Below, piece by piece: positions 4,348-31,825 of a DNA stretch of 34,707 nucleotides (position 1 is its first letter; each line of letters starts with the position of its first letter). Source of the DNA: a virus; the IMG/VR virus record IMGVR_UViG_3300008110_000193, positions 1-34,707 of that record. The stretch is one strand, 5' to 3'. A program made the translations under genes and the position numbers. The notes beneath the pieces are model-generated. The model did no database searches. It was not told the origin of the DNA and saw only the letters and a list, made by a program, of their open reading frames with translations.

Positions 4348-7300
4348 TGGCTGGCGAAGAAGATATTATCTTAAGAACCAGCAAACAACTCTATGCTGGC
4401 ATCAAACAAGCACAACTTCCACAAGAAGATGTGACTAAAGTTGCAAACTATTTAAACGTTGTTGACATAAACAAAAACTTACGTTCAATACCTGTAACTG
4501 ATGCTGCTAAAGAATTCAAAAAACTTGATGAAGATGTTCAAACAATCATTAAACAATGGGACCCAGCAGCCCCATTCATTGAACAAGAAAAAGAAGGTTT
4601 CTTTTCTAGAGTATTTAAACCAGTGGGAACAGGTTTACAAACATATTCAAGCAAACTATCTGAACCATACCGTGCTTTTAGAGTACGTCAAACACAAAAC
4701 GTATCATGGGACCAAGCATGGAAACTTGCAAAGAATGGTAATGCTCTTTTTGATAAAGAACGTGAAAGAAAAGTTGACAACTTCTACAAACCAGGTGTTG
4801 CAAAGGTAGCAAAACTTGCTGCAACAGGTAAAACAATTGGTGAAATTGCTGCATTTCTAGATACAACAAACGTTGAAGAAATAGAAGCATTCCAAAAACT
4901 TTTAAACAGTGACGAAGAAGTACGTAAAGCAATTGCTGACTACGATACAGCAAAAATATCTGTAGGTAGAGACGCTTTCTATAACATTTTTGATGTAGAC
5001 CCAGGTGAGTTTGGTGCAAACCGTAAAGGTTTCAACATTCTTTCTGGTGTAACAGACCTAGCACAACAAATAGTTTCTGACCCAATAACATATATTCCAA
5101 TATTTGGTCAAGCATACAAGATTTCACAACTATCTATCACAAATATTGCTAAACAAGCAGCCAAAGCAGGAGCAACTGCAGGTGCAAGAGAACAAGCATT
5201 TGCTAAAGGTATAGATAACGCATTCGACCACTGGCTATATGGTAAGGCTGTAACAAAATACTTTGATGAACTAGGTGCAAGTGTTGAAAAATTTGCAACA
5301 AGTAAAGGCGTAGCCAAACAAGAAGCCTTCTCTGAAATAAGAAGGAAGTTTGGTAAAGACTTTAACCAACAAACAATCAAAGAATTTACTGACAATAAAG
5401 TATTCAACGCTAGTGCTGCCAAAAAATTCTTAGCAGACCAACAACGTGCAGAAGGATTACTAAGAGGTAGAGCAACAAGAAGCATACCTGTACTTCCAAC
5501 ATACACTGTTATCACTAGAGCAAAGAATGCTATCAAAGATACTTTTGTTAAAACAACAGGTTTAGCAACTAGAAAAGCCACACCTGCTTTTGATTTACAA
5601 GGCGAAGGTTTAGATATTCTTTTCAGTGGTGGTAAGAATGCTGCTGAAGACCCACGTATTAGACAAGTACTTGATGCTGTTAAACAAACATCAGGCAGAT
5701 TAGATAAAATATCTAGATTCGGTGAAATATCACCAAGCATTAAATCTTTACAAGTAAGCCGTATCGTTGAAAAAGTTGGCGAAAAGAACGGTAAAGCAAT
5801 CTACAAAACAGTAGATAAAGGTTTAGAATCAACAGATGCCGTATACGCTATCGCACGTGCAGCAAACTTCTCAAAACCTTTTGCAGATGAAATCGCTTTA
5901 AGATGGAATCGTGCTACTGAAGGTGAAAGATTTAATATCCGTGATGGTTTAGTTATTGCTTTAGCAGACGCTATTGGATATAAATCAACCAAAGCAGGTG
6001 CTGATGATTTCTCTAAAGCATTAAACTTTTTAAAACCTGAACAATATGCTGCTAACAGAACTATTCAATGGTCTGATTATTTAAAGTTTTCTAAACAAGA
6101 CCAAAAAGCATTAAAGCCTTTTATCACTAAACCAGGCGACCCAATAGAATTTAACCCTGCAACATTTGGTGATGGTGTAAATAAAGCCGTTAACGAATCA
6201 CAACTTGCTAGACAAGTAAGCATTCCAGATATTCGTGAATGGACAAAATTATCCTATTCAAATAAAACATGGTTCTTTAGAAGCATGGGAACATTCTTCA
6301 ACGGTAAAATATCTGAAGGATTAGTTAATGCTTGGGCATTCTTAACACTTGTTCCACGTTTAGGATATCGTTCCGTACTTGAAGAAGTAATGATGTTCGG
6401 TTTAACAGCCCCATTAAAGGCTATACAAGAATACATTACTAAAGGTTTCAAACTATCTGTTATCACAAGAGTTGTACAAAACAGTCGTGGTGGATTCTTT
6501 GACCCTAAAGGTTTAGGTTTATTTAACCGTATCTGGTTCAATGTTTTATTTCGTGGTAAAACTGAAGACATTGTTAAACGTGCATCTACTGCAAAGAACG
6601 TTGACGAAATAGCAGACCTTGTTGCAGAACTAATGCTCAACAGCAAGATATTTCCAAAATCTAAAAACAGAATACAAGATGCTGAAGACGTTAAAGACTG
6701 GGTTAAATACGGTTGGGGACGTTCAGTATGGGCAGATGTAACACTTGGTGGTTCTTTTGGTGCACGTAACGTACCATTAGCACAAAAAGCAATTGGTTCT
6801 TCTAGAGAAATTGCACGTATTCATGGTGATGTTGCACCTTTCTTTGCTGATAAAGAAGCAGCCAAACGTAACTTTAAACGTCAACAAAAATTTGAAGAAC
6901 TAGTTTATTCAAACACTGACGCATACTACTTCTCATTAAACAATGAAATCGTTAGACGTGTAGAATTCGGTGGACGTACTGGAAGAATAGCATTAGAGAA
7001 CATTGAAAACCCTACTAAGGCTATATCTCAAATAGCAAAATTCCTACGTAACAATCCTATTGTTAGACAAAGATTTGCTAACGCATATAGTGCTGGACAA
7101 GTAGATGCAAACAAATTAGCACATTCAATCTACTGGTCAATACGTGAACCATTTGAAGACCGTATCGGTAGAGTCAATATGGACCTTGTTAAACTGGTAC
7201 GTAAACCAGGTAAGAAAAAAGGTACCTACGAATTTGATTCAGAAATAGATTTTGATACATTAAGAAGTTTCAAAGAAGAACAATTACCTAGAAACATTCT

Positions 7301-9152
7301 TTCAGAACAATATGTTGAAACATTTCAAGATGCTGGAAGTTTCATTAAGAAAGCAGTTGACGATTTATACGGCTTAATGGACCGTCAAATCACAACACTA
7401 GGTAGAGAACCTATATCTTTTGCTAACTACTTATTTTACAGAAATGAAATAAGAGGCTTAGAAACTTTAAGACGTAGCCAATTAATGAAAAATGGTATCG
7501 CTGAAGAAGAAGCAACACAATTAGCAAGACGTTGGGCTTCTGAACAAGCCACAGATATGGGTGTTAAGAGGACTTTAGACTTCGTAGATAACCCATTAGT
7601 TCGCACCAATCTAGCATTTACTATGCGTAACTTTGCTAGATTCTACCGTGCAACTGAAGACTTTTATCGCCGTGCATACAGGGCAACAATAAAAAATCCA
7701 CAATCTCTAGTTAGATTACGTATTGCATCAGAGGGATTAGACCACTCTGGTTTCATCTATAACGATGAGAACGGCGAAAAATACTTTGTATTCCCAGGTG
7801 ATGACATTATTTACAGTGCATTATCTAAAGTAACTTGGATATTCAATAGAGAAACACCTTTAGTTCCAACACCTTTAGAGTTCACTGGAAAGATTAAATT
7901 CTTAACACCATCATTGGACCCACAATCATCTATACCAACATTCTCAGGTCCACTTGCTGGTGTAACAATGTTAACTCTAAGAAACCTAATGCCAAACTAT
8001 TGGGGTATTAGAGATAGAATAACTGGTGTAACTCTTGGACCTATGTCTAAGAATGCTACATATCGTGATGTTATTATCCCATCAAATATCAAACGTTTCA
8101 TGGATGCATTCCTTGATAAGAATGAAATAGATTCACAATGGGCATCTGCTGCACGTAAAGCAGCAATTGCTTTAGAAGCAAAAGGTGAAGGTTTAGCCGT
8201 AGATGCTACTGAAGAACAAAAACTTGCATACCAAAAACGTATTGAAGCGATAGCAACAAACACTGTTACTGTTAGATTCTTCCTTGGTTTAGTATCACCT
8301 GTATCACCACAACTTGGTATGGGTAAAGATATGCCTGACTATCTAAAAGATTTAGGTAACGTAAACTTTAAAGCAGAGTTTAATAAACTTGTTGGAGAGT
8401 TAACTAAACAAGGTCATCCAGACCCATACAATGAAGCAATCATTAGATACGATATGGCTAATCCTGGTCTTCTAGCATATAGAATACCTGAAAGCGATTT
8501 AGATAAAGTTGCTACTGTGCGTAAGACTAAAGAAGCAGCACAGTGGATTAGAAACAATCGTGAACTTGTAAACAAATACCCAGAAGGTGCATTGTTCTTT
8601 ACACCAAACACTGGAACATTTGACTTTGATGACTTTGAATTCTTAGAACAAGAAGGATATATTCAATATATTCCTGTTAAGGATTTCATCAAATCAGTTA
8701 GCGTTGCTAATGAGAAACAAGCATATTATGCATTAGTCAATTCATGGGATGAGAAGATTGATAATGCTAATCAATATCTAAAACCTATATTACGTAAACA
8801 AAAGAGTGCCGAAGTTGAACAGTTTAAGAAAGATAAACCTTTACTTAAACAAGAACTTGAAACACGTAGTAATCGTCAACAAATAGAAAACGCTTACGAA
8901 GATTTACGTAGAATGCTTGATTCTGGTGATGCACCAAATAATGAATTGGCATCAAAGTATAAAGAAATGATTCAAGTATTTGATGAAGCAGATGGAATGA
9001 TTAGCATGATTATGTTTGATACTACTGAAAGTAGAATGCAAAAAGAAATACTACGTAAAACTGCTTATCAAAATCTTGAAGATATTGCTGGGCAAGACCC
9101 ACAAGCAAAAGCAATTGTACGTTCAATATTCAGAGAACTATTAGGAGTCTAA
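4347..9152 (+). CDS. Very large putative internal/ejection virion protein
   Basis: At 1601 aa this is the largest gene in the window, lying between the portal and capsid genes. It is mostly alpha-helical, rich in Lys, Asp, Glu and Ala, and has no signal peptide. A hydrophobic stretch lies near residues 655-695 (NAWAFLTLVPRLGYRS), and an aromatic-rich segment follows later (TMRNFARFYRATEDFYRR). I see no lysozyme, transglycosylase or polymerase motif. It sits before the capsid gene, and no tape-measure gene follows the capsid. With the two genes after it, it therefore fits the role of podovirus internal proteins that are ejected with the DNA. That role is inferred from position, size and lack of a tape measure. 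It starts at ATG 4347, overlapping the previous stop, behind AAAGGAT. Confidence 0.75.
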   Translation: MAGEEDIILRTSKQLYAGIKQAQLPQEDVTKVANYLNVVDINKNLRSIPVTDAAKEFKKLDEDVQTIIKQWDPAAPFIEQEKEGFFSRVFKPVGTGLQTYSSKLSEPYRAFRVRQTQNVSWDQAWKLAKNGNALFDKERERKVDNFYKPGVAKVAKLAATGKTIGEIAAFLDTTNVEEIEAFQKLLNSDEEVRKAIADYDTAKISVGRDAFYNIFDVDPGEFGANRKGFNILSGVTDLAQQIVSDPITYIPIFGQAYKISQLSITNIAKQAAKAGATAGAREQAFAKGIDNAFDHWLYGKAVTKYFDELGASVEKFATSKGVAKQEAFSEIRRKFGKDFNQQTIKEFTDNKVFNASAAKKFLADQQRAEGLLRGRATRSIPVLPTYTVITRAKNAIKDTFVKTTGLATRKATPAFDLQGEGLDILFSGGKNAAEDPRIRQVLDAVKQTSGRLDKISRFGEISPSIKSLQVSRIVEKVGEKNGKAIYKTVDKGLESTDAVYAIARAANFSKPFADEIALRWNRATEGERFNIRDGLVIALADAIGYKSTKAGADDFSKALNFLKPEQYAANRTIQWSDYLKFSKQDQKALKPFITKPGDPIEFNPATFGDGVNKAVNESQLARQVSIPDIREWTKLSYSNKTWFFRSMGTFFNGKISEGLVNAWAFLTLVPRLGYRSVLEEVMMFGLTAPLKAIQEYITKGFKLSVITRVVQNSRGGFFDPKGLGLFNRIWFNVLFRGKTEDIVKRASTAKNVDEIADLVAELMLNSKIFPKSKNRIQDAEDVKDWVKYGWGRSVWADVTLGGSFGARNVPLAQKAIGSSREIARIHGDVAPFFADKEAAKRNFKRQQKFEELVYSNTDAYYFSLNNEIVRRVEFGGRTGRIALENIENPTKAISQIAKFLRNNPIVRQRFANAYSAGQVDANKLAHSIYWSIREPFEDRIGRVNMDLVKLVRKPGKKKGTYEFDSEIDFDTLRSFKEEQLPRNILSEQYVETFQDAGSFIKKAVDDLYGLMDRQITTLGREPISFANYLFYRNEIRGLETLRRSQLMKNGIAEEEATQLARRWASEQATDMGVKRTLDFVDNPLVRTNLAFTMRNFARFYRATEDFYRRAYRATIKNPQSLVRLRIASEGLDHSGFIYNDENGEKYFVFPGDDIIYSALSKVTWIFNRETPLVPTPLEFTGKIKFLTPSLDPQSSIPTFSGPLAGVTMLTLRNLMPNYWGIRDRITGVTLGPMSKNATYRDVIIPSNIKRFMDAFLDKNEIDSQWASAARKAAIALEAKGEGLAVDATEEQKLAYQKRIEAIATNTVTVRFFLGLVSPVSPQLGMGKDMPDYLKDLGNVNFKAEFNKLVGELTKQGHPDPYNEAIIRYDMANPGLLAYRIPESDLDKVATVRKTKEAAQWIRNNRELVNKYPEGALFFTPNTGTFDFDDFEFLEQEGYIQYIPVKDFIKSVSVANEKQAYYALVNSWDEKIDNANQYLKPILRKQKSAEVEQFKKDKPLLKQELETRSNRQQIENAYEDLRRMLDSGDAPNNELASKYKEMIQVFDEADGMISMIMFDTTESRMQKEILRKTAYQNLEDIAGQDPQAKAIVRSIFRELLGV

Positions 9153-16100: not shown

Positions 16101-16111
<11 letters not shown>
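15758..16111 (+). CDS. Beta-rich virion protein, BppU-like N-terminal type
   Basis: This 117-aa, mostly beta-stranded protein has the pattern [20 protein letters not shown], then a 'Y-A-M-Q-R' strand, [17 protein letters not shown], and a Y-D-L strand. It resembles small phage structural proteins related to the N-terminal domain of baseplate upper proteins. It lies directly upstream of the collagen-like fibre and overlaps it by 11 bases, so it may attach that fibre to the virion. The family likeness is from memory; the role is inferred. Confidence 0.7.
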
Positions 16112-17750
<1,639 letters not shown>

Positions 17751-17767: not shown

Positions 17768-18292
17768 ATGCCATTAAATTTTCCATCAAGTCCAAACGTT
17801 AATGACACATATACATATAATGGTCAAACTTGGAAATGGGATGGTACTGCTTGGAATCTTGTAATCATTACACCTACTGGTCCAGTTGGACCTACAGGTC
17901 CTACAGGACCAACAGGTTCTACAGGACCTACAGGTGGTACAGGTGCAACAGGTACTTATTCAGATTCATTTACTGTTAATGCTCAAACAGGAACAACATA
18001 TACTGTTGTATTAGCAGATGCTTCTAATAAAGTTGTAACAATGGATAACGCTTCAGCAAATACTTTTAGTATTCCAACTAATGCTTCTGTTGCTTTTCCT
18101 ATTGGTTCACAAATAACTGTTGCACAAAAAGGTGCAGGTCAAACAACTATACAAGCAGTTACTTCTGGTACAACAACTATTAACGCTGCATCAGCAACAA
18201 CTACTGCACCTAAACTTAGAACAAGATATTCAGCAGCAACCTGTATGAAAGTTGATACAGATATTTGGTACGTCTTTGGAGATATTGTTTAA
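17768..18292 (+). CDS. Second fibre-type protein with collagen stub
   Basis: This 174-aa protein opens with a short module MPLNFPSSPNVNDTYTYNG plus W-containing strands. This is a pattern I remember at fibre N-termini. A brief collagen-like run follows (~38-62), then the same C-terminal domain as the large fibre (from VNAQTGTTYTVV, through ASVAFPIGS, to KVDTDIWYVFGDIV). It ends overlapping the Gly-rich gene (TAATG). A short alternative or co-assembling appendage subunit is likely. Confidence 0.75.
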   Translation: MPLNFPSSPNVNDTYTYNGQTWKWDGTAWNLVIITPTGPVGPTGPTGPTGSTGPTGGTGATGTYSDSFTVNAQTGTTYTVVLADASNKVVTMDNASANTFSIPTNASVAFPIGSQITVAQKGAGQTTIQAVTSGTTTINAASATTTAPKLRTRYSAATCMKVDTDIWYVFGDIV

Positions 18293-19005
18293 TGGCTTTT
18301 GTTAAAGGTGTAATGGCTTCTTCCGTAATAGATTTTTCTGCTACAGGTGGAACTGTAACTACTGCTGGTGGTTACACTATTCACACTTTTACTGGTGGTG
18401 GAACTTTTACTACAAGTGGTGCAACTAAAACTTTAGAATGTTTTGTACTTGCTGGTGGTGGCTCTAGCCCTGGAACATCATGGAACGGTGGTGGTGGAGG
18501 GGGAGCAGGAGGTTTAATAATAAACTCCTATTCTTTTACTCCAGGAAGTTACACAATTACTGTTGGTGGTGGAGGTGGTTCATCATCTATTGGTGCTCTT
18601 GTTACAGCCAACGCTGGTGGTAATGGTGGTGCTTGGAGAAGTAATGGTGGTGGTGGAGCATCAGGTGGAGGTGGCGGTGGCTACAACTCTGGTGCATCAG
18701 AAAACTACGCTAATGACGGCTTAGCCTACACTTATGGTGGTAACGGTGGAAACGGAAACGTTTCATCTGTTAACGACCCAGGTGGAGGAGGAGGCGGTGC
18801 AGGTGGCAACGGCGGTGGTGGTGGCGGTAACACTGGTGGTGCTGGTGGTGCAGCCTATACTTCAAGTTTTAATGGAACATCAACATCTTATGCACGTGGT
18901 GGTGCTGGTGTAGGTGGTTCTAATAGTGGTACTCCAGCAAACTCTGGCAACGGTGGAACTTATGCAGGTGGCGGAGCATCTGGTAGAGTTATGATAAGGT
19001 ATTAA
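18292..19005 (+). CDS. Glycine-rich appendage protein, copy 1
   Basis: This 237-aa protein starts with a beta-rich part (TVTTAGGYTIHTFTGGGTFT), then a long stretch of poly-Gly motifs (GGGGGGAGGLI, GGGGAGGNGGGGGG), and closes with ASGRVMIRY. This is the phage glycine-rich-domain architecture associated with virion tips and receptor binding. I choose ATG 18292, which overlaps the upstream stop, over an upstream GTG at 18265. A close homologue lies at 22950, and each copy follows a fibre with the same C-terminal domain. Confidence 0.8.
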   Translation: MAFVKGVMASSVIDFSATGGTVTTAGGYTIHTFTGGGTFTTSGATKTLECFVLAGGGSSPGTSWNGGGGGGAGGLIINSYSFTPGSYTITVGGGGGSSSIGALVTANAGGNGGAWRSNGGGGASGGGGGGYNSGASENYANDGLAYTYGGNGGNGNVSSVNDPGGGGGGAGGNGGGGGGNTGGAGGAAYTSSFNGTSTSYARGGAGVGGSNSGTPANSGNGGTYAGGGASGRVMIRY

Positions 19006-19006
19006 T

Positions 19007-19372
19007 ATGGCACACTTTTGTCAACTAGATGAAAACAATGTTGTTTTAAATACCATTGTAATTAATGATTCTGATTGTTTAGATTCAAATGGTGTTGAAT
19101 CAGAAGAAGTTGGTATAGCATTTTGTAAAAACCTTTATGGTCAAGATACTAAATGGGTTCAAACTTCTTGGACTAGAAGAATACGTAAACATTATGGTGA
19201 ACCAGGTTTTACTTATGATGAAGAACGTGATGCTTTTATTCCACCAAAATATTATGAGTCTTGGACATTTAATGAAGAAACATATGATTGGGACCCACCA
19301 GTACCATATCCTTCTGAAGGACCTAAATGTTACTGGAGTGAATCAAAACTAAGTTGGATTCCTTTAGTTTAA
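19007..19372 (+). CDS. Small accessory protein, cyanophage-type family, 121 aa
   Basis: This 121-aa protein runs MAHFCQLDENNVVLNTIVIN, then GIAFCKNLYG, a tryptophan-rich GFTYDEERDAFIPPKYYESW, and ends WSESKLSWIPLV. I remember this pattern as a common uncharacterised protein in aquatic phages, often beside fibre genes. It may assist fibre assembly; that is a guess from context. Its stop meets that of the reversed gene at a shared TTAA (19369-19372). Confidence 0.75.
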   Translation: MAHFCQLDENNVVLNTIVINDSDCLDSNGVESEEVGIAFCKNLYGQDTKWVQTSWTRRIRKHYGEPGFTYDEERDAFIPPKYYESWTFNEETYDWDPPVPYPSEGPKCYWSESKLSWIPLV

Positions 19373-20103
19373 GAATAAGTTTTCTTTACCCAATATTGAT
19401 TCTTGTAAGACCTAATTATTTTAGAAAGCAAAGTATATAAACCTTTTTCTCTAAGACCTTCATCAAATGGTTCTTGAGTAGATTCCCAATCATCTCTTTT
19501 AAAAGGAATGATTTGGGCAATAGGTGTACCTTTTTCAATAATGTACATATCGTTCTTAAACTTGTTTAATTGTATTGGAAAGTTTACTGGATTAGGATAT
19601 ACATCTGTATCCACTACTCCACTAAATGTTCTGAATGGTAAATCGTTTCTGTTTAAGGGATGAGTAAATAAACAACTGTATCCTTTAGGAGTAATTACCT
19701 GTATAGGATTGATTACTTTAAATATGATTTCACTATCTTTAGACATCTCAATTAAAGGTAATCCTGGGTATTGGTGCTTATTGTGAACATCCATAATCTT
19801 TTCAGCAATACGCCAGTTGGCATATACCTCATTACCATCTTTGGTAAATTGGACATCTGCTGGTAGTTTAAATACATAACCTGCCATAAGGGCATCCATC
19901 ATAGGAGTGCACCCTTTAAGGGTTAAATTGGTGCCATCTGGGGAGTTTCTCATAACCCCTAGTTGTTTATGACCCTCTATTAAAAGAGGCATCTTTTGGT
20001 ACCATTCTGGGATGGCTGTGGTTGCTGGTTCTATAAAGGTAAACCATTCAGGTAAACCTGGCTGTGTGGCTTTGAAAGTTATTTCCATAGGTTTATGGTA
20101 CAT
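19369..20103 (-). CDS. Reversed gene of unknown function, aquatic-phage family
   Basis: This 244-aa leftward gene sits inside the rightward late module. It contains TLKGCTPMMDALMAGYVFKL, PADVQF, KGYSCLFTHPLNRNDLPF, SGVVDTDVYPNPVNFP and KGTPIAQIIPFKRDDW. I remember a family with this order in marine phages; no function is known to me. The 'TPxMDALxAGY' and 'GIxDTDxxPNP' patterns look like binding-site loops rather than a classical enzyme. I place the start at ATG 20103 (ATG 20088 is possible). A TTG at 20175 would overlap the divergent glycosyltransferase. It may be a separately acquired accessory gene. Confidence 0.75.
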   Translation of the reverse strand: MYHKPMEITFKATQPGLPEWFTFIEPATTAIPEWYQKMPLLIEGHKQLGVMRNSPDGTNLTLKGCTPMMDALMAGYVFKLPADVQFTKDGNEVYANWRIAEKIMDVHNKHQYPGLPLIEMSKDSEIIFKVINPIQVITPKGYSCLFTHPLNRNDLPFRTFSGVVDTDVYPNPVNFPIQLNKFKNDMYIIEKGTPIAQIIPFKRDDWESTQEPFDEGLREKGLYTLLSKIIRSYKNQYWVKKTYS

Positions 20104-20153
20104 TACTGTATAGGTTTGTGCAAAAGCAGACACGCCGATAGTTGGGACATATC

Positions 20154-21215
20154 TTGAAAATAGCCGTATACACAATAGCCCTTAATGAAGAAAAACATGT
20201 TGAACGATGGTTCAATGCTACCAGAGATGCAGATTACCATCTGATAGCAGATACTGGTTCAACAGATAAAACTATAGAGATTGCCAAATCTTTAGGTATC
20301 AATGTTCATTCAATATCAGTTAAACCTTTTAGGTTTGATGATGCACGTAATGCTGCTCTAGCATTAGTGCCTAGTAATATTGATGTTTGTTTATCTTTAG
20401 ATATGGATGAAGTTCCAGAAGAAAACTTTTTCTCTGTACTTAAAAAAGAATGGAAACCAGAAACAACTAGAGGTTGGGTTTGGTGGGACACAGGTCAAAC
20501 TTGGGAAAACAATAATCGTTTACACGCAAGAAATGGTTATCGTTGGGTTAAACCTTGTCATGAAGTTACAGAGTATTATGAAGATTTAGCAAATGGTAAA
20601 AAAGAAGTTACACAAAGATTTAATGTAACTGTTTATCATAAACCTGATGATACTAAATCACGTGGACAATATCTTCCTATGTTGCAGATAGCAGTTAAAG
20701 AAGACCCTAGTGATGCACGTATGTGGGCTTATCTTGCTAGAGAATATTTCTTTCATCAAAGATGGAGAGATGTTATTGATACAGCAGAGAAAATGCTTGA
20801 GCATGGTGGATGGTACATAGAACGTGCTTCTACTTGCAGGGCTGCTGGTCAATCTTTTATGAATCTTAACAATAAAGAAATGGCTAGAGAATGGTTTGTT
20901 AAAGGTGTTAAAGAAGCACCTGACCAACTTGAAGCCTGGTTTAGTCTTGCCCAGTTCTGTTATGAAATAAAGAATTGGCAAGGTTGCTGGGATGCAGCAA
21001 TTAAAATAAATGAACTACAAAAACAAACCCATTACTTGGTTGATAAAAGTATTTGGGATTGGAGATGCTACGACTTGTTAGCAGTCTCTGGATGGAATAT
21101 AAATAAAAAAGATGAAGCAATTGAATATGCTAGAAAAGCAGTTGCTGGTAATCCTAATGAAGAAAGACTAAGAACTAATTTAGAATGGATGCAAAAGAAT
21201 AATGCCAACGTTTAA
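20154..21215 (+). CDS. GT2-type glycosyltransferase with C-terminal TPR repeats
   Basis: This 353-aa protein has an N-terminal GT-A fold with KIAVYTIALNEEKHVERWF, IADTGSTDKT and the metal-binding DMD in LSLDMDEV (D83, D85). Residues ~195-350 are helical repeats of TPR type (DARMWAYLAREYFFHQRWRD and later copies). I choose TTG 20154, which gives the typical start and has GGGA at 20144-20147. It probably transfers a sugar to a virion protein, host surface glycan or DNA; the substrate cannot be read from sequence. It lies divergently from the reversed gene and overlaps the adaptor gene by 14 bases. Confidence 0.85.
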   Translation: MKIAVYTIALNEEKHVERWFNATRDADYHLIADTGSTDKTIEIAKSLGINVHSISVKPFRFDDARNAALALVPSNIDVCLSLDMDEVPEENFFSVLKKEWKPETTRGWVWWDTGQTWENNNRLHARNGYRWVKPCHEVTEYYEDLANGKKEVTQRFNVTVYHKPDDTKSRGQYLPMLQIAVKEDPSDARMWAYLAREYFFHQRWRDVIDTAEKMLEHGGWYIERASTCRAAGQSFMNLNNKEMAREWFVKGVKEAPDQLEAWFSLAQFCYEIKNWQGCWDAAIKINELQKQTHYLVDKSIWDWRCYDLLAVSGWNINKKDEAIEYARKAVAGNPNEERLRTNLEWMQKNNANV

Positions 21216-22095
21216 AGAGATGGTTGATGAAGTAATAATAAACCTTCAAGGTTTTACTTTACGCCAAGATAGGTCAACACATTTAACATCTGCTATCACT
21301 TCAACTGCTACCTCTATTACGGTTGCATCAGCAGACAATATTGCTAAAGGTATAATTCAAATTGATGATGAACTTATTTGGGTTGATTCATACAATAAAG
21401 CAACAGGTGTAATGACTATTCCTCCTTATGGTAGAGGATATTTAGGGACAACAAAGTCTTCACATACTGCAGGTACACAAGTTATTATCAAACCAACTTA
21501 TCCTAGATTTAATGTTAAGAAAGCAATTAATGATACTGTTCGTGCAGTAGGAGAAACATTGTTTTCTACAGGAACATACACATTTACATACAATCCTGCA
21601 CAAGTTACATATCCATTACCTGATGATGTTGAAAAAGTATTGGCTGTATCTTGGCAATCTATTGGTCCAACCGAAGAATGGTATCCTGTTCGTGCTTGGC
21701 GTGTAGACCCAATGGCTAACGTTAATGAATTTAATTCTAACTATTCTTTATCTATATATGATGGGATAGTTCCAGGAAGAACTGTTCAAATATTTTATAC
21801 AACAAATCCTGATACTTTTGAAATAGACCAAGATGATTATGAAGATGTTACTGGTCTTCCATTATCTTGCAAAGATGTCATTATCTATGGTGCCGCATAT
21901 CGTATGGCATCTATGATTGACCCAGGTCGTTTGACATTGACTGCTCCTGAAGCAGATATTCAATCAAATAAAATTCCTCTCAATGCTGGTACTAACGCTG
22001 CAAGATATTTACTTGCTTTGTATCAACAAAGATTAGACGAGGAATCTAAGAAGTTGAGAGACCGTTATCCAATTCGTGTTCACTACACAAGATAG
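21202..22095 (+). CDS. Head-tail adaptor-type protein
   Basis: This 297-aa protein has an N-terminal helix (FKEMVDEVIINLQG), then a beta domain with SATSITV- and GRGYLGT-like elements. Helical parts include FNVKKAINDTVRAVGETLF and a C-terminal helix with YQQRLDEESKKLRDRYP. This arrangement matches phage adaptor/connector proteins that sit under the portal and take part in the tail machine. A typical feature is the beta insert carrying an 'LxVDSxNxxT' loop followed by GRGY. The assignment is by pattern and by its place in the tail gene group. It overlaps the glycosyltransferase gene. Confidence 0.7.
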   Translation: MPTFKEMVDEVIINLQGFTLRQDRSTHLTSAITSTATSITVASADNIAKGIIQIDDELIWVDSYNKATGVMTIPPYGRGYLGTTKSSHTAGTQVIIKPTYPRFNVKKAINDTVRAVGETLFSTGTYTFTYNPAQVTYPLPDDVEKVLAVSWQSIGPTEEWYPVRAWRVDPMANVNEFNSNYSLSIYDGIVPGRTVQIFYTTNPDTFEIDQDDYEDVTGLPLSCKDVIIYGAAYRMASMIDPGRLTLTAPEADIQSNKIPLNAGTNAARYLLALYQQRLDEESKKLRDRYPIRVHYTR

Positions 22096-22103
22096 GTAAA
22101 TAA

Positions 22104-22940
22104 ATGCCAGCAAGAAATTACACATCCATACTAGATGCTAAGTCATTGTCTTTAACAATGAACTCATCTGTTACAACAATGCAATTAAATAACCTAACAG
22201 GTATACCATCATATCCATTTACTATGGTTTTGGAACCTGATACTGCTAATGAAGAAATTGTTACAGTTAATAGTTTATCATCTGGTACTACTGTAAACGT
22301 TACACGTGGTCAAGATGGAACTACAGCAGTAGGTCATGACTCTGGTGCTGAAGTACGTCATATGATTACAGCACGTGATTTACAAGAACCACAAAACCAC
22401 ATTTATGGTAATTCAGGTGTTCATGGTGTAACTGGTTCAGTAGTAGGTACATCTGATTCACAAACTTTAACTAACAAAACTATTGATTCTGCAAGTAATA
22501 CTTTAACTGGTGTTGCTACTCTTACTGGTTCTCAAACATTAACCAATAAGACTTTAACAACTCCAACTATAGGTTCATTTGCTAATGCACTTCATACTCA
22601 CGCAGACTCTGCAGGTGGTGGTCCATTATCTTATACTTTGAACAGTCAAACTGGAACATCATATACTTTAGTATTAACTGATTCTAATAAAGTTATTCCT
22701 ATTAGTAATGCTTCTGCTAATACTGTTACTGTTCCACCTAATTCTAGTGTGGCTTTTCCAGTAGGTTCAATCGTTACATTTATTCAAACTGGTTCTGGTC
22801 AAACAACTTTCCAGGCTGGTTCTGGTGTAACTATTAACTCTGAAGGTGGCAAACTAAAGATTAAAACACAATACGCCCTTGCTGGTGTAATTAAAGTTGA
22901 TACAGATTCTTGGGTTGCTTTTGGCAACCTTACTATTTAA
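22104..22940 (+). CDS. Third fibre-type protein
   Basis: This 278-aa protein has an N-terminal beta part with [35 protein letters not shown] and a tail-fibre signature [17 protein letters not shown]. This is followed by two TLTNKT repeats and then the C-terminal domain shared with the other two fibre genes ([40 protein letters not shown]). It probably forms a trimeric appendage. The Gly-rich gene follows 9 bases later, repeating the fibre/Gly-rich arrangement at 17768-19005. Confidence 0.8.
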
Positions 22941-22949
22941 GGGAGCAAA

Positions 22950-23750
22950 ATGTTAGTTGGTACGGTAGCAGCATCTGCTTATCCAGGTGTTGAAGCAACA
23001 GGTGGAACTACTTCCACTTACACATCTGGTGGCACAACATATAAAGTTCACACATTTGATTCAGTTGGCACAAGCACTTTTGCTGTACAAAATGGTGGAA
23101 GTATTGATTACTTAATTGTTGCTGGTGGTGCTTCAGGTGGTCGTGGTGATGGTGTATTTGGTTCTTGGGGTGGAGGTGGAGGTGCTGGTGGTTTATTGTC
23201 TGGCACAACTACTGTAAATACTGGAACAAATTATTCTATTGTTGTTGGTGCTGGAGGTGCTGCTAGAACAGGTACAGACAATGGTGCTGATGGCAATAAT
23301 TCAAGTGCTTTTAATTTAACTTGTTATGGCGGTGGTGGTGGTGGTGCAACTAACCGTACAGGACGTAATGGTGGTTCTGGTGGTGGCGGTGGTGGTGCTC
23401 AAGACCAAGGTGGTGGTTCATCAGGTGGTTCAGGTACTGCAGGACAAGGTAATAATGGTGGTGGAGTAAACGGCGATAGCACAAACATCGTTAACGGTGG
23501 TGGAGGTGGAGGTGCTGGAGGTGCAGGTGGTACTGGTGGCTTAAACGTTTCTGGTAATGCTGGTGCTGGTTCTTCTTCTTCTATTAATGGTACTGCTACT
23601 ACTTACGCTTATGGTGGTGGAGGTTCTCCACGTAACGCAGGCGTTGGTACAACTTATACAACTCCTGGTTCTGGTGGTGGTGGTTCTAGAGGAACCAATT
23701 CTGGTGCTGGTTCAAACGGTATTGTAATTATTCGTTACACATTAGTTTAA
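22950..23750 (+). CDS. Glycine-rich appendage protein, copy 2
   Basis: This 266-aa homologue of the Gly-rich protein at 18292 has a beta start (GGTTYKVHTFDSVGTSTFAV), IDYLIVAGGASGG, many poly-Gly runs, and a closing GSNGIVIIRYTLV. It starts at ATG 22950 behind AAGGGAGC. A virion-tip or receptor-contact role is typical of the family. Two divergent copies in one small genome suggest distinct host contacts or a fibre-switching reserve. Confidence 0.8.
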   Translation: MLVGTVAASAYPGVEATGGTTSTYTSGGTTYKVHTFDSVGTSTFAVQNGGSIDYLIVAGGASGGRGDGVFGSWGGGGGAGGLLSGTTTVNTGTNYSIVVGAGGAARTGTDNGADGNNSSAFNLTCYGGGGGGATNRTGRNGGSGGGGGGAQDQGGGSSGGSGTAGQGNNGGGVNGDSTNIVNGGGGGGAGGAGGTGGLNVSGNAGAGSSSSINGTATTYAYGGGGSPRNAGVGTTYTTPGSGGGGSRGTNSGAGSNGIVIIRYTLV

Positions 23751-28294: not shown

Positions 28295-28465
28295 TTATTT
28301 ATAGGTATTTTTAATTACTTCATCTCTTGTCTTATTTGTCCATTTAGACCAGGCTTTAGCCCAGTTCTTTGGTCTATCTTCAATAGGAAATTTTACAGCC
28401 CACTTATCTCGCATCTCAATATTGCTACTGTAGTTATCATAAATGTAATCGTTACTCCACCACAT
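28295..28465 (-). CDS. Small Trp-rich protein, 56 aa
   Basis: This 56-aa protein is the last gene of the leftward operon. It has six tryptophans and many tyrosines (MWWSNDYIYDNYSS, then KNWAKAWSKWTNKTRDEVI). I choose ATG 28465, which has an AGGGAT ribosome-binding site and overlaps the end of the sigma-like gene. I do not recognise it. The Trp/Lys-rich end could bind nucleic acid or a host protein. Confidence 0.6.
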   Translation of the reverse strand: MWWSNDYIYDNYSSNIEMRDKWAVKFPIEDRPKNWAKAWSKWTNKTRDEVIKNTYK

Positions 28466-29084
28466 TTTTATTATCCCTATCTGTGTATGGTGCTTTACCA
28501 CCAAGTTTACGTATCAATGCATCAATAGCACGAAGTACTTTCATGCGAGCAGTCTTTTCATTTACTTGTAATACTGTTCCTAATTCTTTAGAGTTACGAT
28601 TATTATAGTACCACAAATATAAAATGTTTTGTTGTTCTTCTCTTAGTTTACTGAATGCTCTAGATATATCTGATTGCATAGCAAGAAGATTTCCACCTTC
28701 ACTTGGTGCAAAGGTTGACCTACCACTGTTGCTATGGTCTGTTGTGTTTACTACTTGTAAATCACCTGCAAGAACACTAGGTAATAGTTCTTCAACAATA
28801 TCTCTACGATAATAGAATAAATCTGATACTTCGTATCCTATTGTTTTTGCTTTTTCTGAAACACAAAACTTTCTTGAAGCATTATGTAATGCTCTAGCAA
28901 ATAGTTTTGTTGATTCTTTTTTATCTTCTAAGTTATGCCATTCTTCTAGTTTATTTGGATGAGTAATAAACCATAACCAAAGTTCTTGAACAATGTCTTC
29001 TTTAGGAACCATTGGAAACTCACGATGTTTTTGTGAAGCAATCGTATGTACCATGCTTCCATATTCTGTTACGTAATCTACCAT
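28452..29084 (-). CDS. Sigma-factor-like transcription regulator
   Basis: This 210-aa protein has the layout of a reduced sigma-70-type factor. Residues ~10-80 resemble region 2 (VPKEDIVQELWLWFITHPNK, then basic FARALHNASRKFC). Residues ~140-195 form a region 4-type helix-turn-helix (LREEQQNILYLWYYNNRNSK, ELGTVLQVNEKTARMKVLRA). A low-complexity link lies between. As a late gene of the early operon it could direct host RNA polymerase to the phage late promoter. It starts at ATG 29084 and overlaps the previous stop by 7 bases. Alternatively it is only a region 4 DNA-binding protein. Confidence 0.75.
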   Translation of the reverse strand: MVDYVTEYGSMVHTIASQKHREFPMVPKEDIVQELWLWFITHPNKLEEWHNLEDKKESTKLFARALHNASRKFCVSEKAKTIGYEVSDLFYYRRDIVEELLPSVLAGDLQVVNTTDHSNSGRSTFAPSEGGNLLAMQSDISRAFSKLREEQQNILYLWYYNNRNSKELGTVLQVNEKTARMKVLRAIDALIRKLGGKAPYTDRDNKNVVE

Positions 29085-31291: not shown

Positions 31292-31825
31292 TTACCTTGT
31301 CTGCTTGTGTGTAATAAATGGTGGTGCTGTGTAGATATTATTTTTTGTTGCAATCTGCATGGCTTGTCGCCATGTTGCACCAGCATGTAACGCACCTATT
31401 GCATATGGTGAACCTGAACCTATGCCGTAGATACCATCGTCTCTTAACAACACAGATAGTGTGTCATCTATTTCAAATATAGTTCCACCTAATGCTACTA
31501 AGAATATAAAATCTGGGTCTTCTGATTCTTTATCAGGTGTGTAACCATTAACTGCAAGTGTTGCTCTTATCGATGGCACAACATCAGCAATCATGTAGTG
31601 ATATAAATCTTTGTATGCTGTTGGTGGTGGTGTTGGTGGTCTCCAAACGTGTTGAACTATGTCGCAAGGTTGAGTGGTTCCTGCACCTGCAATAAGAAAC
31701 TTTCCACGTTTACTTATCTTTGCCATAGTGGAATGAGTGTATGTTCTTCCACTGTCGTCAGTGATTCTTGAGTCAGCAATAAGCAAACAGTGGTCTTTGT
31801 TTTGTATACCTATAATTGTTGTCAA
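31292..31825 (-). CDS. HslV/proteasome-like Ntn hydrolase
   Basis: This 177-aa protein begins with the start Met directly followed by Thr (MTTIIGIQ), so Met removal exposes the nucleophilic Thr1. Counting from that Thr, D17 (IADSR), K35 (MAKI) and IAGAGTTQ match the active-site residues and Gly loop of the HslV/proteasome beta fold. GIGSGSPYAIGAL and NNIYTAPPF match its C-terminal half. No ATPase partner of ClpY/HslU type is encoded. The start is TTG 31825 behind GGAGAG, sharing bases with the preceding micro-gene's stop (TTGA). The substrate is unknown; it may trim a phage protein or remodel host proteins. Confidence 0.85.
   Translation of the reverse strand: MTTIIGIQNKDHCLLIADSRITDDSGRTYTHSTMAKISKRGKFLIAGAGTTQPCDIVQHVWRPPTPPPTAYKDLYHYMIADVVPSIRATLAVNGYTPDKESEDPDFIFLVALGGTIFEIDDTLSVLLRDDGIYGIGSGSPYAIGALHAGATWRQAMQIATKNNIYTAPPFITHKQTR

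Follow-up and report, generated by a model that had tools for sequence, protein, structure and literature searches.

A conserved fibre-end domain as a probable socket for exchangeable receptor-binding tips in a phage genome

What does a domain that ends three fibre proteins of one phage do there, and how did its three copies come together? The question is raised by virus record IMGVR_UViG_3300008110_000193, whose whole length of 34,707 bases (38% G+C) is here called the window. The domain, hereafter D, is about 100 amino acids (aa) long, and its window copies are named D1, D2 and D3 (Table 1). The original prediction had placed three copies at fibre ends, and they are found there: D1 ends the collagen-like fibre (16101-17747), and genes for glycine-rich (Gly-rich) proteins lie directly behind D2 (18292-19002) and D3 (22950-23747). 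Profile matches identify terminase, portal, SU10-like adaptor, primase and DnaB-like helicase families, and the adaptor is 33-47% identical to those of Streptomyces phages and two unclassified records, which would place the phage near the short-tailed Beephvirinae. The adaptor has 19 relatives among viral contigs; among phage records no relative of the window was found at the DNA level. Loci compared, from viral contigs and from bacterial-genome contigs, carry L-numbers.

The copies are clearly related. Local protein identity is 57% for D1/D3, 51% for D2/D3 and 46% for D1/D2, with alignment scores of 210-316 against shuffled maxima of 50-57 (200 shuffles each), and the predicted similarity at the DNA level is seen at about 72% identity for D2/D1 and D2/D3. 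A KVDTDxW motif, expected in every copy, occurs in D2 and D3, while D1 reads KRATDTW. The two Gly-rich proteins, Gly1 and Gly2, align at 42% identity, glycine making up much of it (score 401; shuffled maximum 246). Behind D1 comes the D2 fibre, with no Gly-rich gene directly following.

An old duplication of the cassette, as first suggested, does not explain these copies, each of which is nearer to domains of other phages. Among 182 near-full-length unique D sequences, D1 is matched best by L048 (67%), a contig from an unrelated phage, and window D3 comes at rank 16 and D2 at rank 165; the nearest to D2 is L188 (69%), with D3 at rank 31 and D1 at rank 145; and the nearest to D3 is its L024 orthologue (87%), with D1 at rank 7 and D2 at rank 124. 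In a tree of 181 D sequences the three stand apart, D3 grouping with L024/L015/L017 (support 100/99) and D2 with L198-L205 (100/99). Forcing them into one clade cost 82 log-likelihood units and was rejected by the approximately unbiased (AU) test (p-AU 2.1e-6, 44 sequences); forcing D1 and D3 alone together gave p-AU 0.0037. Nearest neighbours, tree and AU test all reject a local duplication of D1, D2 and D3.

Comparison with relatives suggests how the copies may have been gathered. In relatives the collagen fibre is followed by a glycosyltransferase gene, directly or past other genes. Its D end was found only in the window; other collagen fibres read to their end mostly close in a hydrophobic FLGGM-like peptide. 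Set against these relatives, the short D2 fibre (FibB) and Gly1 look like an insertion. Residues 1-137 of the D3 fibre (FibC) are kept in most relatives, with or without D, and its C-terminal end varies: D in the window, L015, L016, L017, L019, L022, L024 and L026; an LLMGG-like peptide in L009, L010, L011, L013, L018 and L020; something else in L021 and L023. Ends and cassettes have therefore been exchanged. A doubled D cassette recurs elsewhere: two D-ended fibres per contig occur in L019, L022, L077, L089, L166, L170, L173, L177, L180, L184, L185 and L190, where the first D fibre is followed by a YKVLAQSAP protein of 106-110 aa.

D is a C-terminal domain with a wide distribution. It lies at most 6 residues from the stop in 181 of the 182 near-full-length unique copies and ends the protein at 13 of 15 held-out bacterial-genome loci. 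Among the matches listed from the viral collection, 587 of 600 stretches fitting a sequence pattern encode a D relative. Of 50,697 phage records 295 hold one, and most of these are from Gordonia (223) and Ruegeria phages. The 15 bacterial-genome contigs with a relative (Actinomycetota, Pseudomonadota and others) are in many cases metagenome-assembled. Several PHROG profiles also close with D (residues 658-755 of 755 in phrog_8780, 450-554 of 555 in phrog_21510), and FibC has no Pfam or NCBIfam match at E 0.1. Distant relatives also occur in Bacteroidota contigs L225, L227 and L228; as the gene behind D opens with a hydrophobic leader in L225 and L227, these relatives may be part of a cell-surface system.

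The order of D followed closely by another gene is equally widespread. A gene starts within -10 to +24 nt of the D stop in 165 of 177 C-terminal copies, against 745 of 1078 other open reading frames of the same loci (of 181 C-terminal copies, 4 truncated ones were set aside; at least 200 nt downstream and a next gene of at least 60 aa were required). The commonest offsets are -1 (57), -4 (38) and +3 (22); in the window the ATG of Gly1 shares one base with the D2 stop (-1 nt) and Gly2 starts 9 nt past the D3 stop. Such spacing would suit translational coupling. At least 25% glycine is found in 67 of the 165 next-gene products. Most of the 77 non-Gly-rich next genes scanned (non-redundant, at most 750 aa, without FibB or the PASTA- and MSRLAL-types) have no Pfam match; the remainder include Laminin_G_3 (10), fn3 (2), RCC1, sialidase N-terminal, CBM35 and others. 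The same order occurs in cultured EE36phi1 (gp33/34), Ruegeria V16 and V17, Dinoroseobacter DS-1410Ws-06, Gordonia Wizard, Tolls and StorminNorm, Marinobacter PS6 (next product RCC1) and Brevundimonas Kabachok, whose next product is glycine-rich and annotated 'lectin-like'. Separately, some loci carry downstream of D a PASTA-like protein, so named by eye, with (F/Y)FxPP repeats at its end. Its gene is split at the same place by an apparent +1 frameshift, at a CGG codon deduced from three-frame translations, in L041 (6309-), L043 (6294-), L044 (5135-), L052 (4132-), L085 (6276-) and L090 (6297-), and is unbroken in L040 and L071; the shift is possibly programmed.

Many products of the gene behind D begin alike despite unrelated bodies. 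Over about 10 residues they follow M-x(0-4)-hydrophobic-G/A-...-A-S, as in MQILAGVG, MPILGTIASS, MILASHGLIASS and MNIPLGIMASA. Cross-trained profiles were built from 55 of 72 distinct next genes, after starts later than +12 nt and N-termini more than 60% alike had been dropped. The profile from 26 Gly-rich N-termini ranked the 29 other next genes above 463 controls (area under the curve, AUC, 0.84; p 4e-10), and the reverse profile ranked the 26 Gly-rich N-termini above 463 control N-termini with AUC 0.95. A profile made from viral contigs likewise put the next genes of 13 held-out bacterial-genome loci ahead of controls (p 0.002); 6 of the 13 exceeded the 95th percentile, and the low-scoring Bacteroidota loci L225, L227 and L228 are exceptions. 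It is these cross-trained and held-out profiles that carry the claim; a regular expression matching 18 of 26 Gly-rich, 15 of 29 other and 17 of 463 control N-termini is descriptive only, having been written after the same N-termini were viewed.

The peptide is also where bodies are swapped. Between L188 and L197, DNA identity is 86-88% over the D gene, 97% over the first 11 codons of the next gene and 43% over the following 20. Like drops, with differing bodies, occur in L139/L197, L154/L160 and L155/L160; all four pairs share 70-87% DNA identity over D and 85-97% over the first 11 codons, then fall to 43-55%. Lying at the overlapping stop and start of two genes and at recombination borders, the motif might be kept for reasons of DNA or translation, as a recombination hot spot or start-site context with no protein-binding role. 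Against this stand identical peptides whose codons differ in third positions only, such as the 11 of 11 residues shared by L107 and L170 with 0, 0 and 5 differences at codon positions 1, 2 and 3; the overall third-position excess is partly by construction, since pairs were chosen for peptide identity. We give very little credence to a DNA-level or translational origin of the motif.

A natural comparison within the phage group separates the N-terminus from the body. Behind a fibre that lacks D come, in most cases after a 109-aa YKVLGQSAP protein, tip-like genes whose products start MAIRRFLSS, MAVNRLNVG, MIKRFSASS and similar. A profile built on 115 N-termini from other phages placed 8 D-adjacent tips at control percentiles 77.5-100 and 18 genes not adjacent to D at 28.7-90.5 (p 3e-4). 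Some of the 18 are near-copies of one another (L011/L013/L018), and 4 belong to D genomes, where they lie further downstream. Loci L012, L014, L016, L020, L021, L025 and L027 were set aside as truncated, near-copies of L011 or having no visible tip-like gene. Bodies cross this divide: the slot-1 Gly-rich proteins of L009 and L017 have bodies that match tips next to D in other phages, with 60% identity over 227 aa for L009 and 56% over 259 aa for L017. From the profile split and the homologous bodies on both sides it follows that the N-terminus tracks the fibre end and the body does not. L017 has both connectors in one genome, and of 165 D-next genes 1 reached the 99% threshold set for the second type, roughly what chance would give. 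This second pairing joins a fibre end in LLMGG or FLGGM to tips whose first residues are MAx[RKN][LF], often with the YKVLGQSAP protein in between; it is seen at L009 9402-10662, L011 3778 and 6613-8316, and L017 3275-4560.

Structure prediction gives a possible reason for the terminal position of D. The AlphaFold2 model of D3 predicts the XD1 fold of T4 gp9 and gp10 and of CBA120 TSP4, aligning over 88-95 residues with TSP4 (7rej, 80-180, Z 9.6), gp9 (1qex, 65-165, Z 9.1) and gp10 (5iv5_AC, Z 8.1), with Foldseek probability 1.00 for 7rej and 5iv5. The closest solved fold is the C-terminus of the Pa223 capsid spike (9ny6; Z 14.4, 94 residues). No credible sequence relative of D was found in the PDB, the best profile match (E 0.15) being to unrelated proteins. 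According to the cited passages on TSP4 (PMC8825819), the termini of XD1 lie on opposite faces of the trimer, and flanking linkers would block a trimeric partner. If D likewise trimerises, its place as the last domain would leave the distal face free, which would explain why almost every copy ends so near the stop.

The model of Gly2 in turn points to a receptor-binding body behind a flexible N-terminus. A joined D3-Gly2 monomer model has a mean predicted local distance difference test score (pLDDT) of 87.8 and a predicted template modelling score of 0.66, with D and body mostly high; residues 105-119, the region of the shared peptide, are its only stretch of at least three residues below 50. 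A conserved yet unfolded N-terminus suits a binding peptide. The body is predicted to have a TNF-like plus glycine-rich fold, matching cyanophage Pam3 fibre gp24 (7ypx_A; Z 16.4, 180 residues), the Bxb1 tail tip (9d93_Qb; Z 14.2, 173 residues) and, more weakly, ALK/LTK glycine-rich domains (Z 6.8-8.4); S16 gp38 (6F45) is not among the matches listed for the joined model, a listing that does not exclude likeness. In the cited part of PMC9608196, receptor recognition by Pam3 gp24 is assigned to the matching region. By sequence, Gly2 passes PF21722 (Gly_rich_2; 57 bits against a curated cut-off of 24.3) and Gly1 falls under it (18.3 bits). Gly2 has no PDB match at E 0.01, in a search limited by low-complexity glycine sequence, and 13 pattern matches to Gly1 in viral contigs yielded 0 confirmed relatives. 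The link of the cassette to receptor contact, part of the original prediction, holds, with the contact likelier in the Gly-rich proteins than in D, because D is the conserved part.

We propose a model, in our judgement probable, where D is a fibre-end socket, the N-terminal peptide a plug and the next gene an exchangeable receptor-binding tip. Each fibre would end in a conserved D domain, and the next gene, translationally coupled, would supply a separate tip protein whose residues 1 to about 10-13 attach to the exposed distal face of D. Beyond them the tip would be a receptor-binding body, in the window a TNF-like/glycine-rich adhesin; that function is suggested by fold, position and exchange. 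With such a standard connector, bodies and whole D-plus-tip cassettes could be swapped between phages and between two fibre slots per genome, and the three window copies would have been gathered by such exchange rather than by local duplication. Whether D and plug form a general connector across phyla, in Actinomycetota, Pseudomonadota and other hosts, with cartridges of unrelated fold recombining at the plug codons and a parallel connector of LLMGG/FLGGM ends and MAx[RKN][LF] tips, seems to us evenly balanced.

Several observations weigh against a socket and plug. In the window the putative plugs are weak to moderate profile matches (Gly1 at the 77.5th and Gly2 at the 92.9th control percentile), and D1 is followed by a fibre rather than a tip; 12 of the 177 D genes lack an immediate tip gene, and some next genes lack the N-terminal motif. 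Docking of the plug on D is not seen in the joined monomer model, where the plug stays disordered. D and plug hardly covary (Mantel rho 0.08, p 0.037), and pairs whose bodies differ give p 0.65; the comparison used 128 tip-like genes of 148 non-redundant of 165 next genes, after removal of FibB, of products shorter than 100 aa, of late-starting genes and of the YKVLAQSAP-, MSRLAL- and PASTA-types. The StcE glycan-binding domain matches the D fold (Z 6.7), and the XD1 domain of TSP4 is called a probable spacer in the cited passages of PMC8825819.

The spacer role and the weak covariation would also suit a D that is a mere C-terminal trimerisation cap, foldon-like, keeping the fibre in register, the next protein being an adhesin attached elsewhere in the virion with an N-terminus made for that site; the extreme C-terminal position suits a cap equally. 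We nevertheless think a cap unlikely, as homologous bodies bear different N-termini according to the preceding fibre end and the order of D and next gene is held across unrelated phages. The StcE match bears on a further alternative, in which D itself binds a receptor glycan, its three divergent copies offer alternative contacts, as in the original prediction, and the protein encoded next is a chaperone or an additional adhesin. The glycan-binding domains of StcE and CpaA share the D fold (their role as given in the cited part of PMC8825819), and the window copies are 43-54% different. D is conserved, however, across phages whose next-gene bodies vary greatly, and some of those bodies contain domains of families that typically bind ligands (LamG, sialidase N-terminal, CBM). 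Neither Gly1 nor Gly2 matched a tail-fibre-chaperone family (Tfa/T4 gp38) beyond a weak hit of Gly2 to phrog_863 'tail fiber assembly' (E 2.6e-4, against 7e-37 for phrog_2295). Receptor binding by D appears improbable to us, and a D socket holding the next protein by its N-terminal plug is the model we compare with known systems.

In phages of the T2/S16 type gene 38 comes after gene 37, and Gly1 and Gly2, at -1 and +9 nt, have the same place right behind a distal fibre gene. Our best reading is an arrangement like gp37-gp38, though of different build. The tip of T2/S16 (gp37 trimer and gp38 adhesin, PDB 6F45) likewise mounts an adhesin by its N-terminus on a trimeric fibre end (cited passages of PMC6851490 and PMC12892980) and has a glycine-rich, hypervariable body; a T2-PP01 gp38 chimera indicates that the gp38 N-terminus sets fibre compatibility (PMC12892980, in part). 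The gp38 attachment domain has Trp-bearing helices (PMC6851490, in part), whereas Gly2 has about 15-20 residues with no Trp before its folded body. The window fibre end is predicted to be XD1-like, unlike that of T2/S16, and D-next bodies of other phages are often not glycine-rich. The gp38 body is a polyglycine-II sandwich on a beta-helix; among the matches listed, the Gly2 model resembles TNF-like/glycine-rich folds.

Other systems share single elements. The XD1 domains of CBA120 TSP4 and T4 gp9/gp10, whose fold is the one predicted for D, belong to branched machinery joining receptor-binding proteins, and there XD1 is N-terminal or internal and XD2/XD3 dock (cited part of PMC8825819), whereas D is at the extreme C-terminus. 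Pam3 gp24 (PMC9608196, in part) and Bxb1 tail tip chain Q (9d93) have the TNF-like plus glycine-rich domain predicted for Gly2; in Pam3 gp24 it is fused to its own helical anchor, and in the window a gene of its own, next after a fibre with a D end, encodes it. The modelled spikes of Dhillonvirus, Traversvirus and Littlefixvirus have no receptor domain of their own and are capped by next-gene products, with a knife-like spike end and Ig-like and hand-like tips unlike D and its tip; the cited part of PMC12309495 describes no shared plug peptide. The Pseudomonas phage Pa223 spike (9ny6) has its D-like fold at residues 198-291 of a 294-residue chain, in a capsid spike, unlike a tail fibre. In searches of the open-licence PMC literature we found no description of a D socket with a plug peptide, which does not prove there is none.

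Table 1. Features of the window, with strand and the evidence or location noted for each
Feature	Coordinates	Strand	Evidence or location
Collagen-like fibre, 549 aa, D1 at C-terminus	16101-17750	+	PF01391, E 1.4e-28
Domain D1, putative fibre-end socket; another fibre next, no tip	17442-17747	+	Alignment, neighbour comparison
Short fibre FibB, 174 aa, short collagen-like stretch, D2 at end	17768-18292	+	phrog_3449, phrog_8780
Domain D2	17966-18289	+	Alignment, tree
Gly1, Gly-rich putative tip protein, 237 aa	18292-19005	+	phrog_2295, E 7.3e-26
Putative plug peptide of Gly1, MAFVKGVMASSV	18292-18327	+	Weak profile match
121-aa protein (phrog_7759) behind Gly1 cassette	19007-19372	+	E 3.5e-38
Fibre FibC, 278 aa, N-terminus (1-137) conserved, D3 at C-terminus	22104-22940	+	phrog_12150 (1-137), E 1.4e-32
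Domain D3, predicted XD1-like fold	22632-22937	+	AlphaFold2 pLDDT 94.7
Gly2, Gly-rich putative tip protein, 266 aa	22950-23750	+	phrog_2295, E 7e-37
Putative plug peptide of Gly2, MLVGTVAASAYPG	22950-22988	+	Within low-pLDDT stretch of joined model
Folded body of Gly2, predicted TNF-like plus glycine-rich (TG) fold	22995-23747	+	Structural matches
Sigma-factor-like gene	28455-29084	-	Replication half of window
HslV-family peptidase-like gene	31295-31825	-	Replication half of window

The surroundings of the cassettes add some detail. The N-terminus of FibB matches phrog_3449, tail collar (E 4e-18), and its C-terminus phrog_8780, minor tail (E 1.1e-17). A homologue of the phrog_7759-type protein behind Gly1 sits, in relative L019 (12740-13144), behind the tip genes of the other fibre slot. 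Within the plus-strand tail region a minus-strand DUF6065-like gene (phrog_7084; 19372-20175) adjoins the putative FibB/Gly1 insertion, and a glycosyltransferase with TPR repeats (phrog_13126) is encoded at 20142-21212. Relatives covering the stretch, except L025, have the phrog_13126 glycosyltransferase between the collagen fibre and the adaptor; perhaps it modifies fibres.

Should D prove to be a socket for the protein encoded next to it, D and the following gene would be a sequence signature of receptor-binding proteins in uncultured phages. The model would also explain how adhesins of unrelated fold (glycine-rich, LamG, RCC1 propeller) come to stand behind the same fibre end. Host-range evolution in these phages would then be open to study as testable swaps of single genes.

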